A DNA stretch of 64,000 bases from the NCBI RefSeq assembly GCF_004365915.1, contig NZ_SODI01000001.1:1674001-1738000 (forward strand). The letters are read 5' to 3'. The position numbers were made by a program, and so were the translations under genes. Positions 25,418 to 41,849 of this stretch are shown here, piece by piece. Source of the DNA: Cryobacterium psychrophilum. GTDB taxonomy: Bacteria; Actinomycetota; Actinomycetes; Actinomycetales; Microbacteriaceae. Numbering within the stretch: the stretch's first letter is position 1; every line of letters starts with the position of its first letter. The notes under the pieces are model-generated. The model saw only the letters and a program-made list of their open reading frames with translations, was not told the DNA's origin and searched no databases.

Positions 25418-26385
25418 CGATTGTCTCGAACGTCTCGAACACCGAGGAGACCCCGGGCGAGACGCCCCAAATGGTCGAGCCCCCACCACTTGACGTTGCT
25501 GCCGTCGTCGTCACGTACAACAGCACACGCCACGTGGGCGCCCTCCTCGACAGCCTGCCTGCTGCGTTCGGCGGCCTGACCTATTCCGTTTTGGTCGTCG
25601 ACAATGATTCGACCGACGGGACGCCAGAGCTGCTCGCTCGTCGGTCCGACTGCACTGTTGTACGGGCCTCGAACGATGGATACGCGGCCGGAATCAATCG
25701 AGCCGTACTAGCCTCACCCGGAGCGTCGACGGTCCTCATCCTCAACCCCGATGCCACGCTCGACCCCGACGCTGTGCCACGGATGCTCGAGGTTCTCCAA
25801 CGACGGCCCGGTGCCGGCATCATCGCACCGCGCGTGCGCGAGGAAGATGGCCGTCTCTCCCCCACACTGCGGCGGGGACCGACGCTCGGACGCGTCGGCG
25901 GGTTGAGCTTCACGGGTCTGCCGGTCTTCACGGAGCGGATCGAGATCCTGGGCGAGTATAAGAGCGAGCACGAGGTCGACTGGGCCGTGGGCGCGATCCT
26001 GCTCGTCGACCGACGGTGTTTCGATGCGTTGGAGGGCCTCGACCAGTCCTTCTTCCTGTACTCGGAAGAGACGGATTTCAGTCTCAGGGCTCGTGATGCC
26101 GGCTGGGCGACCGTCTACACCCCGCGCGCCGGCGCGATGCATGTCGGCGGGGGCTCAGGTGAGAGCGCCACAACGCACACGATGCAGATGCTCAACCGAA
26201 TACGCATCTATCGCCGTCGCACGGGCGACGTGCGCGCATGGCTCTACTTCGCCATGACGGTCGTCGTCGAAGTGCGGCGTGCGGTCCTCGGAGACCGCAA
26301 GTCCTGGACGACCGTACGGGCGCTGCTGAGGCCCTCGATCCGTCCCCCGCAGCTGGGCGCGAGCGCCGCGTTCTTGCCCGAGTAA
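25414..26385 (+). CDS. Glycosyltransferase family 2, rhamnosyltransferase-like
   Basis: A 323-residue GT-A enzyme. VAAVVVTYNSTRHVGALLDS opens the nucleotide-binding fold; VVDNDSTDGTPEL and LILNPDATLDPDA (DxD-like) follow, then the acceptor-region signature FFLYSEETDFSLRARDAGW, typical of WbbL-type rhamnosyltransferases. No clear membrane anchor. The ATG overlaps the polymerase stop by 4 nt and the gene ends the plus-strand block, 6 nt from the convergent deacetylase gene. Donor sugar is uncertain. Confidence 0.88.
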   Translation: MTIVSNVSNTEETPGETPQMVEPPPLDVAAVVVTYNSTRHVGALLDSLPAAFGGLTYSVLVVDNDSTDGTPELLARRSDCTVVRASNDGYAAGINRAVLASPGASTVLILNPDATLDPDAVPRMLEVLQRRPGAGIIAPRVREEDGRLSPTLRRGPTLGRVGGLSFTGLPVFTERIEILGEYKSEHEVDWAVGAILLVDRRCFDALEGLDQSFFLYSEETDFSLRARDAGWATVYTPRAGAMHVGGGSGESATTHTMQMLNRIRIYRRRTGDVRAWLYFAMTVVVEVRRAVLGDRKSWTTVRALLRPSIRPPQLGASAAFLPE

Positions 26386-26391
26386 CGGCGG

Positions 26392-27045
26392 TCAGCGGAT
26401 CCGTTTGACCCTGCTTGCCAGCAGGTTGCGCACATCCCGCACACCTGGACGGTGCGTGATCACCGAGCGGATCGACTCCACAGTGTCGTTCGCGGTCACG
26501 CTGTAACGCGCCTGAATCCACGCGGACGAACGCGCGGGGAGCCGATCACTCGTGTACACCGTTCGGTAGCCGACCCGTGCCAGCCGCCCAAGCAGCTGAC
26601 GATCGTACCGCCCGAGCGGGAGTGCAACATCATCAATCTCCCCTCCGCTGGCCTCGGCGAGGGCAGTGCGGGCATCCACGAGCTCCCGGCGTGCCTCCTC
26701 CTCACCGAGCCCGCGCCAGGGAACGTGCGTCCAGCCGTGGCTGCCGATCGCCATGCCGGCACTGCGGAGATCCCTGAGATCGGACGATGACAGGCTCGCC
26801 GGATCATCCAAGCGGCCGGCGAGCGCGAAGAACGAGGCGCGCAACTCACGCTCACGCAGTGCGGGGAACGCAATCGAGACGTCTGAACGGTTGCCATCGT
26901 CAAAACTCAGCCTCACCTGGGGGCTCTCTCGCACCTCATCCAGGATGCGAAGGAAGCAGTCCTCCGTCACCCAGTACCGGGACTCTCCTGATTCCCGCTC
27001 GTGAACGATGGTTCCGATACCGTGGAAGCAGAGGTTGGTGATCAC
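26392..27045 (-). CDS. Polysaccharide deacetylase family protein
   Basis: A 217-residue NodB-fold protein. The metal-site motifs are LSFDDGNRSD (about residues 45-54) and GSHGWTHVPW (about 103-112), and an N-terminal CFHGIG replaces the usual YHGV. There is no signal peptide, so it would act in the cytosol, or on a lipid-linked or nucleotide-linked substrate, rather than on exported polymer. The GTG at 27045 overlaps the stop of the GT2 gene upstream (GTGA), which links the two in one unit. Confidence 0.85.
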   Translation of the reverse strand: MITNLCFHGIGTIVHERESGESRYWVTEDCFLRILDEVRESPQVRLSFDDGNRSDVSIAFPALRERELRASFFALAGRLDDPASLSSSDLRDLRSAGMAIGSHGWTHVPWRGLGEEEARRELVDARTALAEASGGEIDDVALPLGRYDRQLLGRLARVGYRTVYTSDRLPARSSAWIQARYSVTANDTVESIRSVITHRPGVRDVRNLLASRVKRIR

Positions 27046-27917
27046 GCCTCTGCGCCATTCGCCGTTGACGGTCGCGTTCGACGAGTACTGTCATCGCGCC
27101 CCCAACCTTCGCCCGAACTCACCCTGCGGCGTGCGAGGAGGCCCGCGATCAGCGAGATCAGCACGTACGGAACCGCCGCGGGCAACAATCGGGGATTGGG
27201 CAGCACTACGTCGTGCAGCCAGGCCCAGCGGTCGGCTGCTCGGACGGTCACATCGATCGTTCCCTCCGCGGCCGCGGCCCTCATCTCGGCGTTGCCCCGC
27301 CGCACTCGGACCAGTCGGCGCACCAGGTCACGGGTTGTGAACGGGGCTCCCACCACGACCTCGACGAGGCGCACCTCCCTCTTCTCGGCAACGGTGAATT
27401 GAGAATCGAGGAAGAGGTCGTCCGCGATCATGGACGGAAATGCGTCGAAGCGTGCGCGGCCCTCTTCAGACAGGGCGATTAACCCCCGTCCGAACAATCC
27501 GGTCCGGAACGCGGGCAATCTTTCGTTGATCGAGAAGTAGGCTCGGACGGTCCAGGGCCGTCCCATCGTGTCCAGACGACGCCGAGGCACCACGGCGAGT
27601 ACGTGCGGGGTCTCAGCAAAACATCTGACCAACGCGGCGAGCCCACCGGGAGGCACGAGGATGTCAGCGTCTAGGTAGATCCGGGGGAAACCGGTAGCAG
27701 CTCGGTCGCCCACGTTGAGCGCTGCGGCTTTGCCCGGTTCCGGGCGATCGATCACGATGACGCCCGCACGCGTCGCCATGGCGACCGTCCGGTCAGTGCA
27801 CCCGTTGGCGCTGACGACGACCTCGATGGCGTCGTGCGTCTCCTGGGCGAGCAGCGCGTCGAGGCTGTGCCCGATCACGTTCTCCTCGTTGTGGGCGGCG
27901 ATCACGATGCTCGGCAT
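27042..27917 (-). CDS. Glycosyltransferase family 2 with C-terminal membrane segment
   Basis: A 291-residue GT-A enzyme beginning MPSIVIAAHNEENVIGHSLD, with VVSANGCTDRTVAMATRAGV, a RPEPGKAAALNVGD element and the metal-binding IYLDADILVPPGG. One hydrophobic helix (about residues 250-268) near the C-terminus anchors it to the membrane. It is coupled to the deacetylase gene, so the pair may add and then deacetylate an N-acetylated sugar (inference). It is divergent from the GNAT gene with about 100 nt between starts. Confidence 0.86.
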   Translation of the reverse strand: MPSIVIAAHNEENVIGHSLDALLAQETHDAIEVVVSANGCTDRTVAMATRAGVIVIDRPEPGKAAALNVGDRAATGFPRIYLDADILVPPGGLAALVRCFAETPHVLAVVPRRRLDTMGRPWTVRAYFSINERLPAFRTGLFGRGLIALSEEGRARFDAFPSMIADDLFLDSQFTVAEKREVRLVEVVVGAPFTTRDLVRRLVRVRRGNAEMRAAAAEGTIDVTVRAADRWAWLHDVVLPNPRLLPAAVPYVLISLIAGLLARRRVSSGEGWGRDDSTRRTRPSTANGAEA

Positions 27918-28015: not shown

Positions 28016-28882
28016 ATGAACCGCAAGAAGATCGACGTTCGACCGATCATGGCTGATGACACCGATGTGGTCTCCTGGTTCCTCCACAATCACCTGAACT
28101 CGAGGGTAGGTCCTTCGGCATGGGGGGCACTTCTGGCTCCCCCGTGGAGTGCCGATCCACCCAACCACGGGTTCCAACTCGTCGCGGACGACACGATCGT
28201 CGGCGCCTATATCGCGGTGTACTCCGAACGCGACGTCGACGGCGAACCGCGCAGGTTTTGTAATCTCGCGGCGTTCTGCGTGCTCGAGGAATTCCGAGGC
28301 CACAGCCTTCGCCTGATGCGAGCGATCCTCGCACAACAGGGGTTCGAGTTCACCGACTTTTCGCCGAGCGGGAACGTCGTGGCGCTGAACCAGAGGCTCG
28401 GCTTCGCTGTGCTCGACACCGCAACCCGGTTGACGCCGAACCTGCCTCGCCTCCCGCGACGCGGGCTCACCATATCGGATGATCCGACCGTGGTGGCGGG
28501 GGTCCTGTCGGGGCGGGACGCTCGCGTGCACGCAGAGCACCGGGACGCCACTGCGGCTCGCCACATCGTCGCGATCAGGGAGGGCGAGTATGGCTATCTC
28601 GTCGTCCGCAAGGACCGCCGCAAACGACTTCCACTTTTCGCATCACCGCTGTACGTCGGAGGAAGCCAGGACCTGCTCCGAGCGGCGTGGCCACAAATCA
28701 GCTCCCACCTGCTGTTGCGACACGCTGCCCTGGCAACACTGGCCGAGCGGCGTGTGCTCGGATTCAGCCCCACGCTCGGTTTCGACCTTGCTGCACCTCG
28801 GGCGAAGATGCTACGCAGCAAGAATGTGCGAGCTGAGGCCGTCGACTACCTCTATAGCGAGCTGACCTTGCTCGAGTGGTAG
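28016..28882 (+). CDS. GNAT-family N-acyltransferase
   Basis: A 288-residue protein. The first 145 residues look like a GNAT domain: beta strand RFCNLAAFCVLEEFRGHSLR carries the motif A acyl-CoA loop region, and VALNQRLGFAVLDTATRL is a motif B-like end. The C-terminal half (about 150-288) is not recognised. I chose the ATG at 28016; ten further codons upstream are in frame but lack support. It stands alone between the deacetylase/GT2 pair and the beta-helix protein, and could modify a sugar amine or use the acyl-ACP made elsewhere in the locus (inference only). Confidence 0.7.
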   Translation: MNRKKIDVRPIMADDTDVVSWFLHNHLNSRVGPSAWGALLAPPWSADPPNHGFQLVADDTIVGAYIAVYSERDVDGEPRRFCNLAAFCVLEEFRGHSLRLMRAILAQQGFEFTDFSPSGNVVALNQRLGFAVLDTATRLTPNLPRLPRRGLTISDDPTVVAGVLSGRDARVHAEHRDATAARHIVAIREGEYGYLVVRKDRRKRLPLFASPLYVGGSQDLLRAAWPQISSHLLLRHAALATLAERRVLGFSPTLGFDLAAPRAKMLRSKNVRAEAVDYLYSELTLLEW

Positions 28883-28980: not shown

Positions 28981-30525
28981 TCAGAGCGCCGGGGCCACGA
29001 GTGATCCGTCCGCCCAACGGTTGTTGTCCCACTGGTTCCCAGCGCCCGACGAGTCGAACGCTGTCACCGGCCCGTAATAGCCACACTTCTGGTTCACTGA
29101 CGTTCCGAACGTGTTATCCAGGAACCGCATGTCCGAGGAGGGGCGCTCCGCGTTGCCCTTCGTCTCGCCACCCGCATACACGCAGTAGCCGCCACCGTCG
29201 AACAGGTTGCCCTGCACGAGAGTATTCGTGAAGGAGCTGCTCTGATTCAACAGTGAGAGTGCCGCAGTGAAGTTCCCTTGCGGGTCCGGCCCGGTCGTCA
29301 GGCGATTGTTTGTGATCGTGATGTTCGGCCCACCCAGGCTCAAGATTGGCTGGTTGTGCGAGTCGCCAGAAACGGCGAGGTCGTGAATCCACGAGTTCTT
29401 GATCGTCGTGTTTCCGTCAGTCATCACGCCATCCCCCCACCCATGAATGTTGCACGCATCACAGGTGAAGTTGACGTAACCGATAGCGGGATACTTCACA
29501 GTCGATGACCCGGGTCCAGCAATTTCTGTGCTCTGCACGAGCAGACCGGTGTACGGCTGGTCCATTGCAACTCGACCATTCACGATGGAGTTACGGACTG
29601 TAACGTCGTTGGCCTTGATAATCACATCGCCTGAGAACTCGTAGCCGTCGTACACGGCACCTGCGGTAGTGATCGTGATTCCACCGGAAGCCTTCAGCGA
29701 GGTACCCGCGGGGGGTCCCGTCGTGTCCGCGTTCGGGAATGTGCCCGGTGTCGGTGTCGGTGTCGGTTCCGGTGCCGGTGTCGGTTCCGGAGCCGGGGTC
29801 GGTTCCGGAGCCGGGGTCGGTTCCGGAGCCGGGGTCGGTTCCGGAGCCGGGGTCGGTTCCGGTGCCGGGGTGCTTGACGTTGAGGCTGGGCTGAAGACTA
29901 CATCGACGAAGTAATTCGCCGCCTTCCATGTCGACCTCGGCACATCACCCGTCGTCCCATAGCGGTAGCGGCCGCTCCCTGCTGCCGCCGTCAGCGGGCC
30001 GCTGGTCTTTGCCTCGGAGAAGTAGTCGTTCGTGTAGGAGTATCGACCGTTCGGGGCCACATAAGAGACGACGTACGACTTCCCGGCGGTCAACGCAGCG
30101 GGCTCCGCAAGCTCGGCGGTCTGCCATCCTGTTGCGGTCTCGTCAGTGAAGGCCACGCTCTGAAGCTTCGTTCCGGATGCCGTCCAGAGGTTCCCGGTGT
30201 GGGTTCCCCCGTTCCCCGGTCCCTTGTAGAAGCGCAGCGCCGAAACGGTACCCGCCTCGGACGGAGTGAATTCAACACCCAGCTCCACGGCAGCGGTGTC
30301 GTCAGGCGCGGCGGCCACCGCGGGGGTTTCTGTGTTGAAGAGCGAGGATGACGACGTCGTCCCCTGCTTCAGAGCTGTCGGAGGGTCGAGCTGGTCGTTG
30401 TGTGCCCATGCGGCGGAAGAGCCGACCGCGAGGGACATGACGACGGAGGCAGCGATAGCCGTCCCGATCGTTCTGCGGCGTTTAAGCGAGGAGTTTGGTC
30501 CCGCCCGCCGGTTGAGGTTCATCAT
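28981..30525 (-). CDS. Secreted DUF4082 plus right-handed beta-helix protein
   Basis: A 514-residue exported protein. A signal peptide (about residues 20-41, ending AAWA) is followed by a DUF4082-like beta-sandwich (about 55-213; LRFYKGPGNGGTHTGNLW), a Pro/Glu/Thr linker of PTPAPE repeats, and a C-terminal parallel beta-helix (about 260-514; NDVTVRNSIVNGRV, NTTIKNSWIHDLA). The helix part is homologous in layout to the protein at 58988-60682. It may bind or degrade polysaccharide, as beta-helix proteins often do, but no catalytic residues can be named. Monocistronic, with a 300-nt upstream region. Confidence 0.85.
   Translation of the reverse strand: MMNLNRRAGPNSSLKRRRTIGTAIAASVVMSLAVGSSAAWAHNDQLDPPTALKQGTTSSSSLFNTETPAVAAAPDDTAAVELGVEFTPSEAGTVSALRFYKGPGNGGTHTGNLWTASGTKLQSVAFTDETATGWQTAELAEPAALTAGKSYVVSYVAPNGRYSYTNDYFSEAKTSGPLTAAAGSGRYRYGTTGDVPRSTWKAANYFVDVVFSPASTSSTPAPEPTPAPEPTPAPEPTPAPEPTPAPEPTPAPEPTPTPTPGTFPNADTTGPPAGTSLKASGGITITTAGAVYDGYEFSGDVIIKANDVTVRNSIVNGRVAMDQPYTGLLVQSTEIAGPGSSTVKYPAIGYVNFTCDACNIHGWGDGVMTDGNTTIKNSWIHDLAVSGDSHNQPILSLGGPNITITNNRLTTGPDPQGNFTAALSLLNQSSSFTNTLVQGNLFDGGGYCVYAGGETKGNAERPSSDMRFLDNTFGTSVNQKCGYYGPVTAFDSSGAGNQWDNNRWADGSLVAPAL
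29765..29872. repeat. 18-bp repeats encoding a Pro-Glu-Pro linker
   Basis: Six adjacent 18-bp units of the form GGTTCCGGAGCCGGGGTC (four identical, two with one or two changes) encode the PTPAPE linker of the beta-helix protein on the minus strand. Confidence 0.92.
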
Positions 30526-30827: not shown

Positions 30828-31124
30828 ATGAGAGTCCTGTACAGCTTTCCGCACCCCCTCGATCGCGCCGGGATCGCCTTCACGGCGCGCCAGCAAGTGC
30901 TCGGGTTGGCGGAACACGGCGTGCAGGTCGTATTGTTCTGCACATCCGTCGGCGGCCTCGAGTTGCCACCGTCGGTGAAGTTGCACGAGACACTGACGCT
31001 GGACAAGATCCGCGTTCCTCACCGCACCCTCGGCGTTGAGCAAGCATATTTAGTCCACGACAGTGCAGCCCACCGACCGGTTACCGCCGGTCACCCCTTC
31101 AAGTCAGGCTGCGGCGAGTTTTGA
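30828..31124 (+). pseudogene. Truncated glycosyltransferase family 4, N-terminal remnant
   Basis: A 98-codon ORF. The first about 79 residues (MRVLYSFPHPLDRAGIAFTA, QVLGLAEHGVQVVLFCTSV, DKIRVPHRTLGVEQAYLVHD) are a good GT4 N-terminal domain start. The rest is unrelated, and the frame ends antisense to the acyl carrier protein gene. A functional GT4 needs about 350 residues, so this is a broken gene. The break near 31065 coincides with the end of the long minus-strand operon, which suggests a recombination junction. Confidence 0.75.
31075..31092 (-). terminator. Possible terminator of the long minus-strand operon
   Basis: The inverted repeat GACCGG-TTACCG-CCGGTC lies 12 nt beyond the acyl carrier protein stop. 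No U-tract follows, so it is weak. Confidence 0.35.
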
Positions 31125-31361
31125 ATTGACGAACCCGGTTAGCGTGCCGACGGTCTCAAAGATCTCGGCGCCGAACTCGTCATCGTCGACGGTGATGTCG
31201 AATCGCTCCTCGAGCGATGCCACGAGACTCACAACGCCAAAGGAGTCGAGTTCCGGCAGCGAGCCGAACAACACGGTCTCCTCGCGCAGGTCTTCCGGGC
31301 GGTGGTGCAACTCAAGGGTCTCGATCAGTACGTTGCGAACGGCGTTCAGGGTGTCGGTCAT
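31104..31361 (-). CDS. Acyl carrier protein
   Basis: An 85-residue phosphopantetheine-carrier protein. The attachment serine is Ser40 in PELDSFGVVSLVASLEERF, and helix III (DEFGAEIFETVGTLTGFV) fits the ACP fold. It is the last gene of the long minus-strand operon, 27 nt after the decarboxylase. ACPs paired with an AMP-forming ligase and a PLP decarboxylase occur in exosortase-A loci, and in butirosin synthesis an ACP carries the amino acid that the decarboxylase acts on. A role in fatty-acid synthesis is unlikely in this context. The cargo is unknown. Confidence 0.92.
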   Translation of the reverse strand: MTDTLNAVRNVLIETLELHHRPEDLREETVLFGSLPELDSFGVVSLVASLEERFDITVDDDEFGAEIFETVGTLTGFVNSKLAAA

Positions 31362-31388
31362 GGTTGCTCCTAGGTGGGACGGGGGGGG

Positions 31389-32615
31389 TTAGATGAGGAC
31401 TTCCGCGGGTGCGGGATGTCCAAGGAAGGCGGTCGGACTGGCGGTGAGGCCGTACGCCCCGGCCTGGAAAATTACGATGAGGTCGTCGATGTCGGCGTGG
31501 GGCAGCTGGACATCGTCGGCGAGCAGGTCGAGCGGCGTGCACAGACATCCCACGACGGTGACCGCCTCGTCGGAGGCGACCTCGACGCGGTTTCCGACCA
31601 CGACGGGATAGTTTCGGCGAATGGCCTGGCCGAAGTTCCCTGAGGCTGCGAGCTGGTGGTGCATACCCCCGTCGACGACCAGGAAGGTCTTACCGCGCGA
31701 CACCTTGCGGTCCAGCACCTTCGTGACGTACACACCGCACTCCCCCACAAGGTATCGACCGAGTTCGATGACCGGGCTGGCCTCGGGCATCCGCTCGGCG
31801 AGAGGCCCATCGACCAGATCATGAAGGTTCGCGGCGACCGCCTCCAGGTCGAGGGGTCGGTCCTTCTCGACGTACGGGATGCCGAACCCGCCACCCAGGT
31901 TGAAATAGCGCAGCGGTGTGGTCAGGTGCTCGGCGAGGCCGCTCACCAGGTCGACGGTACGCCGCTGCGCCTCGGCGATGATCTCCGCGTTCAGATTCTG
32001 TGAGCCGGCAAACACATGGAAGCCGAGTACATTCGCTCCCGCAGTGGCGTATTCGCGCAGCACCGCGGGCACCTGCTCCGCATCGATGCCGAACTGCTGC
32101 GGTCCGCCGCCCATCCGCATACCCGACCCTTTCACTGCGAAGTCGGGGTTCACGCGTACGGCGACGTTCGGCGCGAGCCCGAGTTCGTCGCCCGCAGCGA
32201 TGACGCGGCGGAATTCCGTTGTGGACTCGATCTCGATCAGGATGCCAGCGGCGACCGCCTGCCTGATCTCCGCCGGCGTCTTGCCCGGGCCGGCGAAACT
32301 GACCTTGTCAGCCCGGATCGTGGTGTCGAGCGCAGTCTGCAGTTCCAGGCCCGACGCGATGTCGATCCGGTCGAGCCTGCGCGCCAGGTGTTGCACGATG
32401 GCGGGCATGGGATTCGCCTTCATCGCGAAGCTGAGTTCGATCCGGGCGGGCAGGGCCGAACGTAGCCGATCGACACGCTGGTCGAGAAGGGCGCGATCAT
32501 ACGCGAAAAACGGCGTCGACCCAACGCGGGCGGCAAGCCTGCTCAGCGGCATCCCTCCGACCCGGAGTTCGCCATCGACGGTGCCGAAGGCGACGACGTG
32601 CTCGTGCGGCTTCAT
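31389..32615 (-). CDS. PLP-dependent decarboxylase, type III fold, exosortase-A-associated type
   Basis: A 408-residue alanine-racemase/DapDC-fold enzyme. The PLP lysine is Lys66 in LSFAMKANPMPAI. The phosphate-binding GGGFGIPY is at 241-248, ELGRYLVGECGVYV at 284-297 replaces the usual EPGR, and the C-terminal active-site Cys359 lies in GCLCTPLDLL. These variants, with HHQLAASGNFGQ, point to the subgroup found beside acyl ligases in exosortase-A loci (TIGR03099-like) rather than to true diaminopimelate decarboxylase. It overlaps the ligase gene by 4 nt. Substrate probably an amino acid, possibly ACP-bound as for BtrK (inference). Confidence 0.9.
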   Translation of the reverse strand: MKPHEHVVAFGTVDGELRVGGMPLSRLAARVGSTPFFAYDRALLDQRVDRLRSALPARIELSFAMKANPMPAIVQHLARRLDRIDIASGLELQTALDTTIRADKVSFAGPGKTPAEIRQAVAAGILIEIESTTEFRRVIAAGDELGLAPNVAVRVNPDFAVKGSGMRMGGGPQQFGIDAEQVPAVLREYATAGANVLGFHVFAGSQNLNAEIIAEAQRRTVDLVSGLAEHLTTPLRYFNLGGGFGIPYVEKDRPLDLEAVAANLHDLVDGPLAERMPEASPVIELGRYLVGECGVYVTKVLDRKVSRGKTFLVVDGGMHHQLAASGNFGQAIRRNYPVVVGNRVEVASDEAVTVVGCLCTPLDLLADDVQLPHADIDDLIVIFQAGAYGLTASPTAFLGHPAPAEVLI

Positions 32616-34189
32616 TGTGACACCTCCAACATGAGCTCGGACAGAAGACTGCTGCGGTCATACTTGCCGTTAGGCGAACGGGGAAGTTCATCGCGCGCGT
32701 CGATGCGGGACGGCACCATGTAGAGCGGCAGGACCCGTTTCAGCTCGGCAGTCAGCGCGTCGACGTCGAGTGCACCAGCAGCGGGCGTCGCCATCAGCAC
32801 GATGCGCTGGCCAAGCGCGGGGTCGTCAATCCCCATGGCTACGGCGTCGCGTACGAGTCCGGTGCTGTGAGCGGCTTCCTCGATCTCGCTCGGGCTCACT
32901 CGGTATCCGGAAGTCTTGATCATGTCATCGCGACGGCCGACGAAGAAGAGAAAGCCCTCTTCGTCGGCCACGACCCTATCGCCCGACCAGACGGCTCTCT
33001 CCGGAGCCCGCCACGCCTGCTCGGGATGGTGCACCGGTCGGTAGCGTCCTGCGGTTCTCGTCGGATCGTTCCAATAGCCGAGCGCGACAAGTGCGCCACG
33101 GTGCACGAGCTCTCCTTCCTCGCCGGGATCGCAAGGCGCTCCGTCTGGACGGAGGACGAGGATCTCAGCATTGGGGATGGCCTTGCCGATCGAGTCCGGA
33201 TGCCGATCGATCTCAGCGGGATCAAGGTAGGTCGATCTGAACGCCTCCGTCAGGCCATACATGAGGTACGGGTCGGCCTCGGTGAAGATCCCACGCAGAC
33301 GATCGAGGGTCGCACGCGGCATCCGGCCTCCCGTGTTCGCCCAGTACCGCAGGCGACTGGCGGCCGTCTGCGGCCAGCTGAGTTCAGCCAGTTGCAGCCA
33401 CAGCGGAGGCACGCCGGTGAGGCCCGTGACGCCGTACTGCTCGCATAGCCTGGGCACTTCTCGGGGCAACAAGTAGTTCATGAGGATGCAATGAGCGCCG
33501 ACCGAAAAGGCCGTCGTCACCTGGCTCAGGCCGGCGTCGAAGCTGAGGGGCAGCACGCTGAGGATGACGTCGTCGCTCGTGTTCTTCAGGTAGGAGCACA
33601 CGCTCTCGGCGCCTACGATCAGGTTGCGGTGGCTGAGCACGACGCCCTTCGGCCTACCGGTGCTGCCTGAGGTGTACAGGATCGCGGCCGGGTCGATATC
33701 GATGGCCAGCGACCGGCCGCTGTCTCGGGACGCCGCATGCTGGTCGTCCCAGCTGTGGACCTGCCAGGATGCCGGTGCCTCGAGCCCGGTATCGCCGAGG
33801 ACGATCACGTGCGCGACACGTGTCTCCGGCAGCACCGAAGCGAGCTGGGGGAGCCTGTCGGCCGAGGTGATGAGAACCTCTGCGCCGCTGTCGGTGAGGA
33901 TGTGGCGAACCTGTGCCGCCTTGAGCACGTGGTTGATCGGGACGAACACTCCCCCGGCGGCGGACACTGCGAAGATCGACGTGACGGTTTCGAACCGTTT
34001 CTCGAGGTAAATCGCCACGCGGTCGCCACGCTGCAGGCCCACGGCGAGCAGCTGCGCCGCGGCGGTCCGGCACATGCGCCAGGTCTCGGCGTAGCTGATG
34101 GTGATCGCGCGATAGGTCAGCGCCGGAGCATCCGGCGTCTCGGCGGCCGCTTGGCTGAGCAGGTGATGGAGATTCGTTCTGGCTGGCAT
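32612..34189 (-). CDS. AMP-forming acyl/amino-acyl ligase
   Basis: A 525-residue ANL-superfamily enzyme that activates a carboxylate as an acyl-AMP and passes it to a thiol, here probably the neighbouring ACP. The P-loop is AILYTSGSTGRPKGVVLSHR (about residues 170-189), YGLTEAFRSTYL the A5 motif, WRAPERAVWSGDRV the A7 region, GRRDDMIKTSGYRVSP the A8 hinge and PNGKYDR the A10 lysine (about 509). The pattern matches the exosortase-A-associated ligases (TIGR03098-like). ATG overlaps the 69-residue gene by one base, and its stop overlaps the decarboxylase start. Confidence 0.92.
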   Translation of the reverse strand: MPARTNLHHLLSQAAAETPDAPALTYRAITISYAETWRMCRTAAAQLLAVGLQRGDRVAIYLEKRFETVTSIFAVSAAGGVFVPINHVLKAAQVRHILTDSGAEVLITSADRLPQLASVLPETRVAHVIVLGDTGLEAPASWQVHSWDDQHAASRDSGRSLAIDIDPAAILYTSGSTGRPKGVVLSHRNLIVGAESVCSYLKNTSDDVILSVLPLSFDAGLSQVTTAFSVGAHCILMNYLLPREVPRLCEQYGVTGLTGVPPLWLQLAELSWPQTAASRLRYWANTGGRMPRATLDRLRGIFTEADPYLMYGLTEAFRSTYLDPAEIDRHPDSIGKAIPNAEILVLRPDGAPCDPGEEGELVHRGALVALGYWNDPTRTAGRYRPVHHPEQAWRAPERAVWSGDRVVADEEGFLFFVGRRDDMIKTSGYRVSPSEIEEAAHSTGLVRDAVAMGIDDPALGQRIVLMATPAAGALDVDALTAELKRVLPLYMVPSRIDARDELPRSPNGKYDRSSLLSELMLEVSQ

Positions 34190-34398
34190 TAGCGTGGGCT
34201 CCGCTCGGCTTGTGCACTGCGTTCCATAAGATATCGGTTGAACTCCTCGGCATCATTGAGGTTGACATAGCGCCGCCCCTTGGGGCCGGTGTTCTTGGGG
34301 TAGATCGGACGCAGTCGGCGGGCGTCCGGCCCGCTTCGCACGACGGTCACGTCGTCGGAGCGGCGACGCGGCTTTGTTCCCTCGGTGACGGGCGTCAT
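34189..34398 (-). CDS. 69-residue protein built of glycosyltransferase-like segments
   Basis: A small basic protein starting MTPVTEGTKPRRRSDDVTVV. Residues about 15-28 (DDVTVVRSGPDARRLRP) match the donor-domain segment VTVVRSGPDTRVMRP of the GT4 at 20873-22276. Its C-terminal part (RRYVNLNDAEEFNRYLMERS) resembles that protein's tail (EHINLDDAVAYEKFLVSRG). The region between them in the GT (over 200 residues) is absent. It could be a collapsed GT gene kept in frame, or a small functional domain of its own. Overlaps on both sides (ATGA and TAATG) suggest it is still translated. Confidence 0.65.
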   Translation of the reverse strand: MTPVTEGTKPRRRSDDVTVVRSGPDARRLRPIYPKNTGPKGRRYVNLNDAEEFNRYLMERSAQAERSPR

Positions 34399-35639
34399 GA
34401 TCCGTACACCTCGTCCTCGATGATCCGGACGACGTCGGCTTGGGCCCTCGTCCAGCCGAACTGCCGTACCGACTCGGATGCCGCCCGCGCGGCGGCGGCA
34501 CGATCGGAACTCGTCACAACCGCGCTCAGCGCGGCGGCGATCCCGTGGGGCGTTGGGGTGGCCCATTTCACGTGCTCGTTCACGAGATCCGCGCGAGAAT
34601 GCACCGAGTCGTTCACCACGGGGATGGTGCCCGCCGCCAGCATCTCCTCGGCCACGAGGCTGATGTTGGTGAACGACATGGCGAGCCCGGCAATGCTGGA
34701 GTTGTAGAGCTCGTTGAGTTCCGTCGGCGTGAGCCTCCCATGCTGCGTCGCCGGGAACGGGAGGCCCTTGGCCTCTGATCCGTAGAGGTGGACCGCGACC
34801 TCGGGGTGGAGCCCGTGGAACCGCTGGAGCGCCAATCGCGCCAACGGGTAGCCGCGGCGAGGCACCTCGGGCCGTGCGAAGAGGACCACGCCGCTGCGCT
34901 CACGCTCGGGGAGCAACCGGTACACCGAAGTGTCGCAACCGAACTCGGTGATGTCCGGGGAAATGCCGATCTCGGACCGAAGCAGCATGGCAACCATCTC
35001 GCCCAGGGCAATCGCGCGAAACCCGAACCGGTAGGTGTCCTCCGCCAAGGAATACATCGATCCGCGCGCGTAGAAGTACGGCTCATAGTCCTGGATGAAG
35101 TACAGGCGCTGCATCGGCGACGTGCCCCGGCGAGCCAGGACATGGGCAGTTTCCCATCCAGAAGCGACGCAGGCGTCGACGCCGGAGATCCCATCGGTTG
35201 CGTCGTGGACCTCGGCCCGTATGTTCGGCCACCAGTCGCGGATGACCCGCTCATGCGCGCGCAAGTCGCCGCCGTATCTGTCGTAAAGGAACAGCTCACA
35301 TCGATGGCCCGCCCTCTCGAGCGCCTCCACCATACGAAACAGGGTCGTGTGACCTCCCGAACCTGCGCTGGGTGGCACCATCACCCACCCAATTCGAAGT
35401 GGCTGCGACCGCGGTGGACGGTGTTCGGGGAGCGCCAGGTTCAACTGCGTCGAGTCGGCGATGTCGTCATCGAGGAGAGGTTCGCTGAGACTCGCCGCAC
35501 CGAGTCTGTTATAGGAGTACCGCGCGAGTCGCTGGGCGAGCACACGCGGACCCTCGCTGCGCAGAATGCCTGCGGCCCGGGTGGCCCTGGATCCGAGCTG
35601 ACGAGATTTCTCACCGATTGTCGTGCGTGTCAGCGTCAT
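34395..35639 (-). CDS. Glycosyltransferase family 4, WsaF-like
   Basis: A 414-residue GT-B protein resembling WsaF-type rhamnosyltransferases: LRIGWVMVPPSAGSGGHTTL near residue 80, then HRCELFLYDRYGG, LYFIQDYEPYFYARGS, FGCDTSVYRLLPERERSGVV and ISLVAEEMLAAGTIPVVND. About 75 residues precede the GT fold. The ATG at 35639 follows AGAAGGG and overlaps the preceding stop (TGATG); the longer in-frame reading is inside the upstream gene. It probably extends the repeat unit at the cytosolic face. Confidence 0.85.
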   Translation of the reverse strand: MTLTRTTIGEKSRQLGSRATRAAGILRSEGPRVLAQRLARYSYNRLGAASLSEPLLDDDIADSTQLNLALPEHRPPRSQPLRIGWVMVPPSAGSGGHTTLFRMVEALERAGHRCELFLYDRYGGDLRAHERVIRDWWPNIRAEVHDATDGISGVDACVASGWETAHVLARRGTSPMQRLYFIQDYEPYFYARGSMYSLAEDTYRFGFRAIALGEMVAMLLRSEIGISPDITEFGCDTSVYRLLPERERSGVVLFARPEVPRRGYPLARLALQRFHGLHPEVAVHLYGSEAKGLPFPATQHGRLTPTELNELYNSSIAGLAMSFTNISLVAEEMLAAGTIPVVNDSVHSRADLVNEHVKWATPTPHGIAAALSAVVTSSDRAAAARAASESVRQFGWTRAQADVVRIIEDEVYGS

Positions 35640-37105
35640 CAAAATGGCCCTTCTATCGCGGCGAGACGACCCGTCCCTCGTGTTTGGTCCTCTGGGAGTC
35701 GACCCGGTCGGTTCGAGCCGCCGGCAGGGCAACTGCGTGCTGCCTCCCGCAACACGCGTGCGTGCGCATCGATCATGGCGGCCACGCCGTCGGAGGCTTC
35801 GCTTGGTGCGAGCGGCATAGCGCGTTCGCTATGCACCGTGTCTACTACGCGCAGGATGGCCTCCCCGAGTTCGGACGAGTTGCGCTGGTGCCCTGCTCTC
35901 CAACGTGCGTGTTCAACGCGGGTGTCGGTCACCTCGTTTGCTTCGCCCGCCCCGTTGGCGATGAGAACCGAACGACCGGGATCGCGGGCAACGAGCTCAC
36001 GGGCCCCGCCGAAATCGCTCAGGATGAGCGGCAGCCCGGCAGCCCACGCCTCCGTCGCGGCAACCGGCCACCCCTCGAAGAACGAGTTGAGCACGAAGGC
36101 GTCAGCGGCGGCGAGTAGTGTCCGTGCGTCCGATGTGGCGAGCAAATGCACCCGATCAGCATCATGGCTGCCGCGTCGGATCGCCTCGGATCGCCGCAAC
36201 TCGACCCAGTCGGAGGGTTCGCCCGCGATCACCAGCTGAGCCGGTACGCCTGCCGCCACGCACGTCAGGAACGATGCCACCGTTCCGGCGATGTTCTTCT
36301 GTGCGTCATACCGCGCAAGGCACACGAAGACAACGTCATCGGAGAAGCGGCCGCCGACGGCTCGCTCAAGGAGGCCTCGAGCCTCACGGCGCTGCTGAGG
36401 GCCGGGCGCATCAAGCCCTGGCGCGGCGTTGGGAATCACCGCGATCCGCGATCGGAGAAGGGCCGGCAGATGACCCGCGTGGAAAGTGCGCACAAGTTCG
36501 CTGACGGCGACCGCTGAGGACGACTCACTGAGCGCCCGCGAGAATCTGCGCCAACGGGCGCGAGAATAGTGGATCTCAGTATTGTGCATCACGGGCACGA
36601 GCGGTGCCCGACTCTCGTGGGCGGCAGCTTCAAGATAGGCCGGCGCGCCGTGGAGCTGGATGACATCCGGGCGGAGCTCTTCGAGCGCGCGCAGAGCCGA
36701 CGCCTTGTCGCGGACGGAGCGCACCTCTATGCCCAAGTCACGCATACGTTGTGCACGCGCTCCGTCGTCCAGGCAAATCACCGCCGAAGCGACCCCCATC
36801 GCTGGCAGCCGGGTGGCAAGCAACTCGACGACTGAACCGATACCGCCGATGTCCAGTTCGCTCCCGACGAGGACGCACCTGAGATCCCCGGTCCGTGTGA
36901 CGTGCGCAGCCGACCCCGATCTCGGGCCGGCATTGAGTGTGCGCAACACCGGCAGCGGCCTGCGCAGGAGCGCTCCCGTGATTCGGTGAACGTACCCGTA
37001 GCGAATGCGGGGCGGCAGTAGCCCGGTCGCCCCGATGACGACGCCGAGCACGAGCGCACTCACGCGTGCGCTCACCCGGGTGGCCAGGCCACGCCCGGCG
37101 GTCAT
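35639..37105 (-). CDS. Glycosyltransferase family 4
   Basis: A 488-residue GT-B enzyme. The N-terminal domain begins after about 65 residues with LRCVLVGSELDIGGIGSVVE, followed by DVIQLHGAPAYLEAAAHESR and PVMHNTEIHYSRARW. The donor domain has VFVCLARYDAQKNIAG and NSFFEGWPVAATEAWAAGLP, where the conserved Glu-x7-Glu region is recognisable (EGWPVAATE). A hydrophobic N-terminal segment (about residues 12-32) may tether it to the membrane. ATG at 37105 overlaps the flippase stop (ATGA). Confidence 0.87.
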   Translation of the reverse strand: MTAGRGLATRVSARVSALVLGVVIGATGLLPPRIRYGYVHRITGALLRRPLPVLRTLNAGPRSGSAAHVTRTGDLRCVLVGSELDIGGIGSVVELLATRLPAMGVASAVICLDDGARAQRMRDLGIEVRSVRDKASALRALEELRPDVIQLHGAPAYLEAAAHESRAPLVPVMHNTEIHYSRARWRRFSRALSESSSAVAVSELVRTFHAGHLPALLRSRIAVIPNAAPGLDAPGPQQRREARGLLERAVGGRFSDDVVFVCLARYDAQKNIAGTVASFLTCVAAGVPAQLVIAGEPSDWVELRRSEAIRRGSHDADRVHLLATSDARTLLAAADAFVLNSFFEGWPVAATEAWAAGLPLILSDFGGARELVARDPGRSVLIANGAGEANEVTDTRVEHARWRAGHQRNSSELGEAILRVVDTVHSERAMPLAPSEASDGVAAMIDAHARVLREAARSCPAGGSNRPGRLPEDQTRGTGRLAAIEGPF

Positions 37106-38688
37106 GAGCGCTCTCGCATCCGCGCGAGGAACGGAAGTCGTGAGCCGATATTGAACCTGCTCGCGATCCGGAGCGCTTCCCGGATGGCCGGCCGGGCCAT
37201 CAGGAGCGTGATCCCGAGGTGTACCGCGACCATCACGAGCACGATCAGGACGAGGGCCAGCCAGGTGGGAAGCGCGGCGGTCCAGAGCGTGCCGACCCAA
37301 CCGGCAGCTGCCATGCAGCCGACGACGGTGATCAGGTAGACGAACGGCCCCGCGATCACTCGCGGCGAGGTCTGGAGAGCATGTGCGACGAGGAACCAGC
37401 GGACGATGGTCGCGACTGTCGCGACGCAGAGGAACCCGGTGGCGATGGCGACGAGCCCCCAGCGCACTGTGAAGAGGGTGGTGGCGAAGGTCAGGGCGTC
37501 GATGACCACGGCGTAGATGAACCACGTGCCGGGTCTGCCCAAACCATAGAAGAGGCCGTGATCAAGCCACGCACCGACCGACAGGGTTCCGGCGAGCGCG
37601 AGGACCTGCGCCACCTGATAGCTCTGCTCCCACCCGTCGCCGAAGACGATCGGGATCATGAGCGGCGCCGCGACGGCGACGATGGTGAGCGGCAGCGACA
37701 AAGCGGCATACGTCACTTTCAGCGCCCGTCCGTAGGCGTCGCGCAACCGGGGAGCAGAGTCCCGGATCTTCGCGAACGCGACGTTGGTGACGGGGACGAT
37801 CGCGCTCCCCGTGAGGTCCTGCACGATCTGGACGAGGCGCTGCGCGATGTTCATGTAGCCGAGCGCGGCCAGGCCGAGGGTGGCCGAGATGACGGCAGCT
37901 TCCCCCCACGCGCGGAGCATCGCGATGAACTCGACTCCCAGCACCTTCCCGCCGAAGCGAGCCATCCGGACAAATTCCACCCCGGAGAACTCCCAGGTCG
38001 GATGCCACGTGACCGTCCACCACGCCAGCGCGGTCGCGAACACGGCGGCCACGAGCGACTGCGCGACGAGGGCCCAGACCCCCATGCCGGAAAACGCCAT
38101 GATGACCGCGACGACCTGGGCGATGATGGCGGCGGCAGCGCCCTGCGCCGCGATCGTCTTGAACCGCATGTCCCGGCGCAACAGGGCCGTCGGGACGGAG
38201 CCGACCGCGGTGACGATGACCCAGATCGACAGCACCTGCAGGACGGGCACGACGCCGGACGCCGCGAAGATCGCGCCAAGCAGCGGCGCAGCGAGGAACA
38301 GGCTCCCGCAGAGCAGAATCCCCGCCGACATCGAGAACCAGAACGCGGTGCTCAGCATTCGCCGGTCGGTCTTCGCAACCTGGACGATGTAGGCCGCGAA
38401 GCCGAGGTCGGCGAGCAGGAAGAAGAACGGCAGGACCGTGGCGGCCGCCGCCACGGTGCCGAAGTCCTCTGGTTTGAGTAGTCGCGTTAGCACCGCGATC
38501 GTTACAAAGCTGAGCACCCGGATCGCCCACTTTTGAATCGTCAGCCAGACGACTCCCTCGGCCGCGGAACGCCCGACATCCAGCTGGGGCACCGGGTCGA
38601 TCGTTGGCTCGATGTTCCGTATGGCCTCGGCCTCGGGGACGTCGGTGAAGCGGTCGGGTCCGGCGTCTCCCTTCCGCTCGACGTCCAT
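37102..38688 (-). CDS. Polysaccharide repeat-unit flippase (Wzx-like, MATE/PST family)
   Basis: A 528-residue polytopic membrane protein with about 12-14 helices starting near residue 45. The segment IAVLTRLLKPEDFGTVAAAA and LADLGFAAYIVQ are typical of the polysaccharide transporter family (Wzx/RfbX). It would flip undecaprenyl-linked repeat units to the outer face for Wzy polymerisation. The first about 45 residues are acidic and cytosolic. I chose ATG at 38688 (overlap TGATG); a GTG one codon upstream also fits. It is the only flippase in the window, although two polymerases are present. Confidence 0.88.
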   Translation of the reverse strand: MDVERKGDAGPDRFTDVPEAEAIRNIEPTIDPVPQLDVGRSAAEGVVWLTIQKWAIRVLSFVTIAVLTRLLKPEDFGTVAAAATVLPFFFLLADLGFAAYIVQVAKTDRRMLSTAFWFSMSAGILLCGSLFLAAPLLGAIFAASGVVPVLQVLSIWVIVTAVGSVPTALLRRDMRFKTIAAQGAAAAIIAQVVAVIMAFSGMGVWALVAQSLVAAVFATALAWWTVTWHPTWEFSGVEFVRMARFGGKVLGVEFIAMLRAWGEAAVISATLGLAALGYMNIAQRLVQIVQDLTGSAIVPVTNVAFAKIRDSAPRLRDAYGRALKVTYAALSLPLTIVAVAAPLMIPIVFGDGWEQSYQVAQVLALAGTLSVGAWLDHGLFYGLGRPGTWFIYAVVIDALTFATTLFTVRWGLVAIATGFLCVATVATIVRWFLVAHALQTSPRVIAGPFVYLITVVGCMAAAGWVGTLWTAALPTWLALVLIVLVMVAVHLGITLLMARPAIREALRIASRFNIGSRLPFLARMRERS

Positions 38689-39920
38689 CACGCACCCCCC
38701 TCGGGGATCGGCGCGAGGCGCAGCGCGCGTCGAGAGAGGCGAACGAGCTTCGCGGCGAGCGTCCGGCCTTCGAACGGCAGGTCGGCGAGCCAGTCCCGGC
38801 TCGTGTACTCGCCCTGGACGGTTCGATAGAAGTCGAAGAGTTTGTCGGCCATCGTCGTGAGGTCAAAACGCTCCTGGGCGAAGTCACGGCCGAAACGTCC
38901 GAGTTCGGTGCGCAGTTCGGAGTCGGCGAGCAGGGGCGCGATCGTCGCGGCCAGTCGCGCCGCCGGGTCGGGCACTGCGTCGGGACTCCAGTAGCTGGAT
39001 CGCGCCAGGACCTCGGCGGACGCTGGTTCGAACAAAGCCGACCATCCCGCCTCGCCCTGCACGACGAGCGGTTTCGCGAATGCCAGCGTACGCGCGGCGG
39101 ACCCCCCCATCCCGAGCATGATGTCGGCCGCGGCATACGCGGGCCGCGGGTCAGCCATCGGCCCCACGAGGAGGACGGCCTCCCTGCCCAGCTCGTCATT
39201 GACGGCATCCGCCTGGGCTTGGAGTGCTGCCACGTTGTCGCCGGTACCGACGATTGCCAGGTTCGCCCCGGTCGGCGCGAGCACACGCATCGCGTCGATG
39301 GCGGCGCGAATGGGAACGGACTTCATGCTGGAGTCGAGTCGACTGACGATGACCAGGAGCGGGCCGTCATTGATGTTGTGCGCGGTTCGAAATTGCAGGC
39401 GATCGCACACATCCGGGTGATTCGCGCTCAGGTCCACCGGCGGACTGATGAGGATGGTGCGGCCCGGTCGATCCTGCTGTTCATCACGTTGATAGCCGGT
39501 ACCGACGATCATCGGCATGTGCCGGTAGATCTTGGCCGACACGCTCATCTCGTACACCGTCTGGACCCAGGGCGTGCGGCCGAACCGGGAGGGTCCCCAG
39601 TAGGTGGGTCGGGCGCCTCCTCCCCAGGATCCGTACACGTGGACGAGGTCGACCTGGTGTCGGCGGGCGAAGGCTGCCACCTGGCGCGCGCGGGCGAACA
39701 CGGTCGGTGCGGGATCGTACAGATGGATCTCGATATCCCTCGCCGCGGCGATCTCGATCATCGACGGGCCATCCGGAATGGTGTCACGTGCTCCCAAAAG
39801 GATCGACTCGACGCCGCACCCGCGCATCTGGGCGGCGAGATCGACCGCGTTGATCTGCGTTCCACCCAACCCGAGGGAATTCAGATGCACCAGCACCTTG
39901 AGCGACGATGTCTGGGTCAT
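38688..39920 (-). CDS. Glycosyltransferase family 4
   Basis: A 410-residue GT-B enzyme: LKVLVHLNSLGLGGTQINAV opens the acceptor domain, QVDLVHVYGSWGGGARPTYW follows, and the donor domain contains LLVIVSRLDSSMKSVPIRAA and ADIMLGMGGSAARTLAFAKP, in which the usual EGF..SxLEA motif is changed to GMGGSAART. That change may alter donor binding. It overlaps the aminotransferase stop by 4 nt and the flippase start by one base. Confidence 0.85.
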   Translation of the reverse strand: MTQTSSLKVLVHLNSLGLGGTQINAVDLAAQMRGCGVESILLGARDTIPDGPSMIEIAAARDIEIHLYDPAPTVFARARQVAAFARRHQVDLVHVYGSWGGGARPTYWGPSRFGRTPWVQTVYEMSVSAKIYRHMPMIVGTGYQRDEQQDRPGRTILISPPVDLSANHPDVCDRLQFRTAHNINDGPLLVIVSRLDSSMKSVPIRAAIDAMRVLAPTGANLAIVGTGDNVAALQAQADAVNDELGREAVLLVGPMADPRPAYAAADIMLGMGGSAARTLAFAKPLVVQGEAGWSALFEPASAEVLARSSYWSPDAVPDPAARLAATIAPLLADSELRTELGRFGRDFAQERFDLTTMADKLFDFYRTVQGEYTSRDWLADLPFEGRTLAAKLVRLSRRALRLAPIPEGGA

Positions 39921-41044: not shown

Positions 41045-41187
41045 AGTCGCGCTCCCTCAAGACGGCGGGCCGGAACGCCCGCCCACGTTTCTTCCGACGG
41101 CAAATCCTGCGTCAGCACTGCGCTCATTCCCAGCGCTGCGCGCCTCGCGACTCGACGGCTCTCCCGCACGCTCGCGTTCGTGGTCAT
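41041..41187 (-). pseudogene. Duplicated C-terminal fragment of a NeuD-like acyltransferase (48 aa)
   Basis: An ATG-started 48-residue ORF: MTTNASVRESRRVARRAALG, then MSAVLTQDLP and ETWAGVPARRLEGARL. It aligns without gaps to the C-terminus of the complete NeuD-like protein just upstream (NASVRERVRIGQGAVLGM ... ESWVGVPARRL), with roughly half of the 40 positions identical. The hexapeptide core is missing. It overlaps the upstream stop by one base (TGATG) and the aminotransferase start by 4 nt, so the remnant keeps operon coupling. A tandem duplication followed by deletion explains it best. Confidence 0.8.
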
Positions 41188-41849
41188 CACGACGCCCGCG
41201 AGGCAGGAACATGCAGGTCGTCGGCGGTCGCGGCCAGACGGCGCGCGGGCACTCCGACCCAGGATTCACGGTCCGGAACGTCCTGCAGCACGGCGGACCC
41301 CATGCCCAGCACCGCCCCCTGGCCGATTCGGACCCGTTCCCGCACGCTGGCATTCATGCCGAGGTATGCCATCGTGCCGATGAACACGTCGCCGCCGAGC
41401 GTGACACCGGCACACAGCGTGGCGAGGGAGTCCACCCTGTTTCCGTGGGTCATGGTGACATTGGGCATGACCACGACGTGATCACCGATGTGCACGTCAG
41501 TGGTGAGTACGACGCCGGCGAGCAGGATGCTGCCGGCCCCCACCCGGCAGGAGTCGGGGACCTCAACCGACCGATGGATGACGCGGGCGTAGCGCCCGGG
41601 CGTGACCCCGAGCCGTTCGATGAGTGCGGCGCGACCAGCACCCCGCCCGACACAGATCACGATCTGCGCAGTCGGGTGATTTGTCACTTCCGACAAACCG
41701 CCGACAACGGGGGCGCCGTCAATCGTCGTCCCCCACAGCGCCGGGTCGTCGTCAACGAACAGCACGGTGCGCGAATCGGACTGGGTGCGCAGCAGGCTGA
41801 GCACTTCGCGTGCGAGTCCGCTCGCGCCGATGAGCAGGAGCTCAGACAT
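41187..41849 (-). CDS. NeuD/PglD-like sugar O- or N-acyltransferase
   Basis: A 220-residue protein with an N-terminal Rossmann-like domain (MSELLLIGASGLAREVLSLL, then TVLFVDDDPALWG) and a C-terminal left-handed beta-helix (VGAGSILLAGVVLTTDVHIG, MPNVTMTHGNRV, VGVPARRLAAT). This is the NeuD/PglD architecture, which acetylates amino sugars such as UDP-4-amino sugars. It overlaps the second DegT gene by 8 nt, as in PglE-PglD pairs, so N-acetylation of the DegT product is likely. The start ATG at 41849 begins the Rossmann strand directly. Confidence 0.88.
   Translation of the reverse strand: MSELLLIGASGLAREVLSLLRTQSDSRTVLFVDDDPALWGTTIDGAPVVGGLSEVTNHPTAQIVICVGRGAGRAALIERLGVTPGRYARVIHRSVEVPDSCRVGAGSILLAGVVLTTDVHIGDHVVVMPNVTMTHGNRVDSLATLCAGVTLGGDVFIGTMAYLGMNASVRERVRIGQGAVLGMGSAVLQDVPDRESWVGVPARRLAATADDLHVPASRAS

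Follow-up and report, generated by a model that had tools for sequence, protein, structure and literature searches.

TIGR03098 ligases and TIGR03099 decarboxylases are named only after the exosortase A loci where they were first noticed; what, then, could such a pair do in Cryobacterium psychrophilum, where it lies beside sugar genes together with an acyl carrier protein (ACP)? This question was addressed in a window of 64,000 nucleotides of contig NZ_SODI01000001.1 (assembly GCF_004365915.1, genome of 3.68 Mb), to which all coordinates refer unless another locus is named. Three genes follow each other on the minus strand at the end of an amino-sugar and glycosyltransferase run going from 45082 down to 34395, which is where an earlier note on this DNA had placed them. 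They encode a VinN-like adenylating ligase (32612..34189, 525 amino acids), a type III pyridoxal phosphate (PLP) decarboxylase (31389..32615, 408 amino acids) and a stand-alone ACP (31104..31361, 85 amino acids). The ligase and decarboxylase genes share 4 bases, at the end of the former and the start of the latter, and the ACP gene begins 27 bases past the decarboxylase; the rest of the interval, 34190-34398, consists of upstream sequence and the final bases of a glycosyltransferase gene. The earlier note had the trio and the run right but overlooked a GNAT-like gene (28016..28882, plus strand), the gene of a NodB-type deacetylase (26392..27045, minus strand) and that of a secreted protein (28981..30525, minus strand). 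In the reading that we favour, with somewhat more confidence than doubt, the trio makes a β-aminoacyl group, most likely β-alanyl, on its own ACP, and the GNAT-like protein hands this group to an exopolysaccharide. Such a reading offers a testable chemical role for the two families.

The family types proposed in the earlier note were borne out by model searches. The ligase scores 716.7 bits with TIGR03098 (curated cut-off 592.35) and the decarboxylase 568.1 bits with TIGR03099 (curated cut-off 478.45). Across the whole genome, the trio ligase is the only one of 31 TIGR03098 matches to exceed the cut-off, and the trio decarboxylase the only one of two TIGR03099 matches, the other being the ordinary lysA. 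The ACP matches PF00550 at 27.2 bits (gathering threshold 20.8) and PDB entry 2lki at E 2e-19, with a presumed phosphopantetheine site at Ser40 in a PELDS motif, and can be aligned with the ACPs of exosortase A (XrtA) loci; each of its 11 NCBIfam matches is under its cut-off. NCBI already labels many proteins of Microbacteriaceae, Jiangella and others as 'exosortase A system-associated', so the presence of the trio in Gram-positive bacteria is not new. The literature searched, which left out most subscription papers, contained no paper giving the present function to the trio and no use of the four model names searched. The words ligase, decarboxylase and acyl are likewise absent from the main text of the 2006 PEP-CTERM paper (PMC1569441).

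The substrate pocket of the ligase gives the first indication of its chemistry. Adenylating enzymes hold the amine of the substrate with a conserved Asp, which corresponds to D218 and is present in 77 of the 77 rows with a letter at this position (79 rows in total), and the substrate should therefore be an amino acid rather than a fatty acid. Residues 173-345 have VinN (3wv4, 3wvn) as best PDB match, with 66 bits, followed by LgrA with 52.6. When the 61 residues around motif A5 (285-345) are taken, VinN sequences are the sole PDB matches at E values up to 10. They align with this segment without any gap, whereas the LgrA loop has two extra residues, as would fit the description of the VinN loop as short (PMC11253843). 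Asp230, Ser299 and Arg331 of VinN, mapped with a chain offset of 16 that was deduced by matching Asp230, align with D218, T286 and R318 of the trio ligase. For VinN, the proposal is that 3-methyl-Asp is held at its amino group by Asp230 and at its free carboxyl by Ser299 and Arg331 (PMC7756342; PMC11253843). Among 79 relatives the T286 position is occupied by Thr in 65 and Ser in 14, R318 is kept in all, and K509 is also conserved among the aligned relatives. By analogy with VinN, the ligase is thus predicted to load, most likely, an amino-dicarboxylic acid, L-Asp being favoured, onto the ACP via its side-chain carboxyl, since an α-carboxyl tied to the ACP could not be decarboxylated.

For the decarboxylase, the best PDB match is BtrK (254 bits), in agreement with the comparison made in the earlier note, followed by 6knh (157) and 2p3e (147), whose PDB entries call them diaminopimelate decarboxylases. 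The variants ELGR and CTPLD, which had been pointed out before, are found in 84 and 87, respectively, of 88 aligned decarboxylases; Lys66 is kept in 87 (one gap) and a GGGFG motif is present too. BtrK, which works with the ACP BtrI in butirosin synthesis and uses an ACP-bound amino acid, shares the CTPxD motif, its CTPED occupying the place of CESGD in the lysA of the genome. From this likeness, the trio decarboxylase, which has a counterpart with 93% identity in Cryobacterium sp. MLB-32, is predicted to act on an ACP-bound amino acid.

Three described enzyme sets provide precedents for such chemistry. VinN loads 3-methyl-Asp on VinL, where VinO decarboxylates the loaded acid, and FlvN recognises Asp (PMC11284099). 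BolO is VinN-like and BolN BtrK-like, and β-alanine fails to rescue a bolN deletion (PMC7756342). AfcQ activates L-Asp, with an Arg311 that matches VinN Arg331, AfcP converts carrier-bound Asp to β-Ala in vitro, and AfcK has a conserved Ser40 (PMC12186527), the same number as the Ser of PELDS in the window ACP. Like the trio, the VinN/VinL/VinO, BolO/BolC/BolN and AfcQ/AfcK/AfcP sets combine a stand-alone adenylating enzyme with an Asp, Ser/Thr and Arg pocket, a stand-alone ACP and a PLP decarboxylase for an ACP-bound amino-dicarboxylic acid. However, the vicenistatin, bolagladin and AFC-BC11 sets feed polyketides or lipopeptides, whereas the trio adjoins glycosyltransferases, a deacetylase and the GNAT-like gene. 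In the family to which the Massilia genome G507 belongs (assumed to be Burkholderiaceae in the wide sense), TIGR03099 exceeds its cut-off in 187 of 392 genomes among the matches listed, a result that does not show AfcQ/AfcP or BolO/BolN to be members of TIGR03098/TIGR03099. Since published AfcQ and AfcP turn L-Asp into β-alanine on a carrier, we consider β-alanyl-ACP the quite probable product of the trio. The earlier proposal that an amino acid is loaded on the ACP and decarboxylated there thus stands, strengthened by the VinN-like pocket and these precedents, with a side-chain-loaded amino-dicarboxylic acid as the most likely substrate.

To which acceptor would the group be passed? The candidate transferase is the GNAT-like protein. 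Its frame opens at 27986 (298 amino acids), and the start was set at 28016 because most listed relatives have 288 amino acids. TIGR03099 exceeds its cut-off in 6 of 60 relatives of the host (own genome included), all within the same genus, and the GNAT-like protein is found at E <1e-130 in the same six; one weak partial match (21.3 bits) lies outside them, and in one of the six, an assembly of about 800 contigs, the GNAT-like gene is on a contig other than that of the trio. A blind draw of the same six genomes would have a chance of 1 in 50 million, a figure that relatedness makes too good. At the level of the phylum, TIGR03098 exceeds its cut-off in 9 of 396 genomes drawn (own included).

To see how far this partnership extends, 88 trio loci were compared, namely the best 80 of 576 from a scan of named genomes, seven plasmid loci and the window; five stretches of genus relatives, four of which show the GNAT-like gene, bring the total to 93. 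Gene counts in these loci rest on tblastn, and since the flanks reach no further than 10 kb or the end of the contig, those of partner genes are lower bounds. We sorted the loci into four neighbourhood classes, A to D. Class A, defined by a relative of the GNAT-like gene at 100 bits or more, comprises 43 of the 88 loci; its many Actinobacteria are joined by nine rhizobial loci (S. meliloti, Aureimonas, Mesorhizobium, Rhizobium and others). Because this gene defines the class, its presence throughout is no evidence; the evidence for the link is the sharing of the 6 of 60 genomes and the contrast of other genes between classes. In 41 of the 43 loci no more than 5 kb separate it from the decarboxylase gene, and in 38 each the ligase is directly upstream and the ACP less than 300 bases downstream of the latter. 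S. meliloti carries the trio in 27 plasmid records, one of which (L050) also has the GNAT-like gene and the deacetylase; the module is therewith found in a genetically easy symbiont. Class B consists of 27 other proteobacterial loci without the GNAT-like gene (a Devosia locus, L090, and the plasmid loci L053, L055 and L056 being left out), 11 of them with a hydrolase 1 relative in reach and one, L054, annotated as an XrtA locus. Class C consists of nine actinobacterial loci without the GNAT-like gene, and class D is a separate actinobacterial group with ACP, ligase and decarboxylase that rests on five stretches from 19 such genomes, a sixth (L146) belonging to class A.

A decarboxylase tree of 100 rows was built with a quick method and SH-like approximate likelihood ratio (SH-aLRT) support. 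One branch of it (64 rows, support 97) unites classes A and C with seven unsorted rows, 24 of the 27 class B rows lie in another (94), and class D has a branch to itself (100) that belongs to neither; long branches (L053-L056, lysA and class D) make the deep order unsure. Seven of the nine rhizobial class A rows group together (98) and are placed with Nakamurella (95), a position that suggests transfer from Actinobacteria. On the same tree, the decarboxylase of a metagenome contig labelled 'Melainabacteria' (L084) groups with Amycolatopsis (98), and this contig is probably mis-binned. The Shinella plasmid locus L055 (6280-10206) combines an ACP, an AMP-binding protein and a type III PLP enzyme with a GNAT-like protein that is only distantly related (102 bits against the profile), and so represents an outlier of this module.

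With the genus relatives added, the GNAT-like partner is found in 47 of the 93 trio loci, and the NodB-like deacetylase in 36 of these 47, compared with none of the 46 others. These two associations are the new observations of this study. The deacetylase itself (PF01522, 70.6 bits) has FDDG and HGWTH sequences, which we take to be the NodB-type motifs, and shows no signal peptide by eye. Further genes follow the same division. A family 2 glycosyltransferase gene overlapping that of the deacetylase (27042..27917, minus strand; PF00535, 77.7 bits) has relatives in 18 of the 47 loci and in one of the 46; for a second one (25414..26385, plus strand; PF00535, 59 bits), whose S. meliloti relative sits after the ACP gene, the counts are 32 and 3. 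The secreted protein carries DUF4082 (PF13313, 173.6 bits), PT-rich repeats and, by eye, a signal peptide. Its C-terminal half has the look of a parallel β-helix outside any Pfam family, and the protein may bind or cut the glycan. Relatives of this half, or of the Aureimonas relative, occur in 31 of 47 against 2 of 46 loci, the two exceptions being L106 and a genus relative (L141) with its GNAT-like gene on another contig. Relatives of the Gfo/Idh enzyme occur in 8 of the 47 loci and in none of the 46. In the earlier note, the acceptor was the amine of a sugar produced by the DegT enzymes. DegT relatives, however, are present in only 15 of the 47 loci (3 of the 46 others), far fewer than those of the deacetylase, and a DegT amino sugar was accordingly rejected as the core acceptor.

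Collectively, these data would fit a pathway of four steps. The ligase would adenylate the amino-dicarboxylic acid at its side-chain carboxyl and load it on Ser40 of the ACP, as suggested by the pocket and the precedents. The decarboxylase would then strip the free α-carboxyl from the bound acid, in keeping with its likeness to BtrK and the example of AfcP. Genome context points to the GNAT-like protein for moving the group to the amine of a lipid-linked or nucleotide sugar, this amine having been unmasked by the deacetylase in the cytosol. Finally, the modified unit would be flipped and polymerised. The glycan would thereby obtain side groups with a primary amine, which are cationic, and no exosortase would be involved. 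The steps do not deserve equal trust: transfer to a glycan by the GNAT-like protein seems to us evenly balanced between true and false, and an acceptor amine made by the deacetylase somewhat less likely than not. A still more tentative generalisation is that of an undescribed, exosortase-free glycan aminoacylation module common to Actinobacteria and Rhizobiales, in which a new acyltransferase family passes β-alanyl to a deacetylated sugar amine and gives the exopolysaccharide positive charges. With the same reserve, this transfer would fall to the FemAB-like and GNAT proteins that neighbour the trio in L054 and in the class D loci L142, L143 and L145.

If the proposal is true, TIGR03098 and TIGR03099 enzymes make β-alanyl- (or GABA-) ACP, with GABA standing for γ-aminobutyryl, the riddle of their presence in XrtA loci becomes testable, and bacterial surface polysaccharides could have a new route to positive charge. 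A known parallel is the Dlt system (DltA/DltC), where an adenylating enzyme and a carrier also put an amino acid on a surface glycan, in the D-alanylation of teichoic acids; the PDB matches of the trio ligase and ACP include DltA and DltC. The Dlt system is not known to have a decarboxylase and needs the membrane transferase DltB, whereas the candidate transferase considered here looks soluble by eye and the transferred group would be a β-amino acid.

Several observations weigh against this proposal. For the transferase, PF00583 matches the window protein at E 0.12 and 13.1 bits, under the gathering threshold of 20.7, and is found in just 8 of 44 members of the family (best E 0.0014). NCBIfam yielded no relative, the PDB no convincing one (two matches, E 0.15 and 0.64), and hhalign of the two halves no internal duplication (E 0.34). 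A Pfam domain is found in none of 120 listed relatives, most of which are nameless or 'hypothetical', a few being labelled GNAT or N-acetyltransferase domain; in total, 1393 relatives were counted among 6722 candidates. Some 50 trio loci are without the GNAT-like gene, so that the trio does not need it everywhere, and 11 of the 47 loci with this gene show no NodB-like deacetylase within the DNA compared. PF13527 is detected in 8 of the 44 members (best E 0.0041), and hhalign against four proteins of class D, three of them above the PF00583 threshold, gave 56% and E 1.1e-4 over 126 columns. The assignment is weak and, judged from these profiles, the protein is likely GNAT-like. For the substrate, the ligase taken over its full length matches LgrA better than VinN (271 against 182.8 bits). 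Phe231 of VinN, whose mutation shows a role in Asp binding (PMC11253843), is replaced by Ala219 in the trio ligase and by Ala in 39 of 39 class A ligases aligned; the pocket therefore differs from that of VinN and a larger acid is possible. Moreover, BtrK, the closest solved relative of the trio decarboxylase, works on glutamyl-ACP and not on aspartyl-ACP (PMC7756342).

The last two points, with the greater room left by Ala in place of the bulky Phe231, would suit a different acid: the ligase would load L-Glu via its γ-carboxyl and the decarboxylase would make GABA-ACP, as in butirosin synthesis. We regard this substitution as unlikely, as the pocket motif is VinN-like and the VinN-type enzymes described in the cited papers as acting on acids with a free carboxyl use Asp or 3-methyl-Asp. 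Furthermore, BtrJ, the ligase of the butirosin pathway, has a fold different from that of the adenylating enzyme of the trio. The product of that pathway is an aminoglycoside.

It is also conceivable, though improbable, that the product of the trio goes into a small molecule or lipid, as it does in the synthesis of bolagladin, AFC-BC11 or macrolactams, that the GNAT-like protein acylates the free amine of β-alanyl-ACP, and that the position in a glycan locus is incidental. Indeed, the class A decarboxylases share their branch with class C, and all five class C loci scanned (L091, L093, L098, L100 and L127) contain polyketide synthase (PKS) or condensation-domain genes. The plasmid locus L053 of Burkholderia cenocepacia has its relative of the trio beside ketoacyl synthase III (KAS III) and acyl-CoA dehydrogenase genes. 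However, no PKS or KAS III family was found among the window proteins scanned, and class A loci accompany glycosyltransferases, the deacetylase and the secreted protein across two phyla. In themselves, the five scanned class C loci are possible natural-product clusters with a β-aminoacyl starter unit. In L053 (6788-18817), the ligase and decarboxylase genes also lie among autoinducer synthase genes; this make-up resembles the bolagladin and AFC-BC11 clusters, and the L053 ligase has Arg at 324, to be compared with 311 in AfcQ.

A third explanation, that the trio is an exosortase A accessory of which a remnant is seen here, appears very improbable. It has in its favour the family names and the proteobacterial trios in XrtA loci, which share with the one studied here the TIGR03098/TIGR03099 families and an alignable ACP. 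Indeed, the exosortase model PF09721 exceeds its cut-off (25.7) in 21 of 26 class B genomes, in 20 of them with at least 220 bits, and in none of six others searched alongside. In the genome of C. psychrophilum, on the contrary, PF09721 has no match, the control M. jannaschii giving one, which extends to the whole genome what the earlier note had seen in the window; TIGR02595, for PEP-CTERM proteins, gave no match there, a blank that carries no weight because no control genome gave one with this model. Among 39 class A genomes the PF09721 cut-off is exceeded in Jiangella endophytica alone, by a marginal, partial match of 27.6 bits, while another has 22 bits, under the cut-off; among nine others searched beside them it is exceeded in none, three having weak matches. 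Furthermore, exosortase was found in none of 25 additional trio-bearing actinobacterial genomes (five genus relatives and 20 others). All these counts exclude the plasmid loci L050-L056. Besides, the catalytic motifs checked in the trio remain intact, and classes A and C branch apart from most class B rows. XrtA loci hold an exosortase, and their ACP, in the loci where it was seen, adjoins hydrolase 1, whereas the trio in the window is accompanied by the GNAT-like gene and the deacetylase. On the strength of the exosortase searches, the accessory role was rejected.

Finally, an ordinary lysA next to a fatty-acyl-CoA ligase, as could be read from Pfam, which yields general domains only, and from the many database names that say diaminopimelate decarboxylase, has a negligible probability and was rejected, as the decarboxylase stays under the TIGR01048 (lysA) cut-off (240.7 against 297.9 bits), the ligase under those of all acyl-CoA ligase models shown, the ligase has the amino-group-binding Asp, and a normal lysA with CESGD lies elsewhere in the genome, adjoining an apparent homoserine dehydrogenase gene.

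Class D shows a different neighbourhood. L142, L143 and L145 have a GNAT-domain protein nearby, with PF00583 at 25-27 bits (gathering 20.7) in three of four proteins, and L145 has two FemAB genes (127 and 129 bits). The regions concerned are 4739-7195 and 10468-12834 of L145, 11821-13191 of L142, and 5808-7652 and 10894-12531 of L143, which also holds a VanW gene. In class D, the trio may contribute to peptidoglycan or to some other polymer of the wall.

Other genes were assigned in the window. Upstream of the ligase, on the minus strand, the run contains a WsaF-like glycosyltransferase (34395..35732; PF22772, 36 bits; PF21374, 35.1 bits), a GT4 glycosyltransferase with an estimated start (35639..37114; PF13692, 57.3 bits), a Wzx/MOP-type flippase (37102..38691; PRK10459, 170 bits, under cut-off) and a probable glycosyltransferase (38688..39920; TIGR03088, weak, 23.3 bits). 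These are preceded by two DegT-type sugar aminotransferases (39917..41044 and 41842..42990; PseC, 219.4 and 295.4 bits, both under cut-off), between which lies a NeuD/PglD-type sugar acetyltransferase, its start also estimated (41187..41852; TIGR03570, 179.1 bits, cut-off 160.8). An NAD-dependent sugar epimerase/dehydratase of the short-chain dehydrogenase type (42987..43985; TIGR04180, 145.3 bits, under cut-off) and a Gfo/Idh-type sugar dehydrogenase (43982..45082; NF040723, 156.4 bits, under cut-off) stand at the beginning of the run. On the plus strand, a polyprenyl glycosylphosphotransferase (18520..20232; TIGR03025, 408 bits, cut-off 295.55) could start the glycan.

Two gene remnants were also seen. 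At 22283-22507 (plus strand) lies what remains of an asparagine-synthase-like amidotransferase, with an MCGI start followed directly by a PP-loop region (SGGVDSS) and the middle gone (TIGR01536, 31 bits across 32 residues). A small frame before the ligase (34189-34566, minus strand) has a C-terminal part resembling two separate pieces of the glycosyltransferase at 20651-22276 (55% over 33 amino acids, and 33% over 27 amino acids, the latter weak with E 0.007). It looks as though it were a glycosyltransferase gene without its middle, a style of decay that is the same as in the remnant at 22283.

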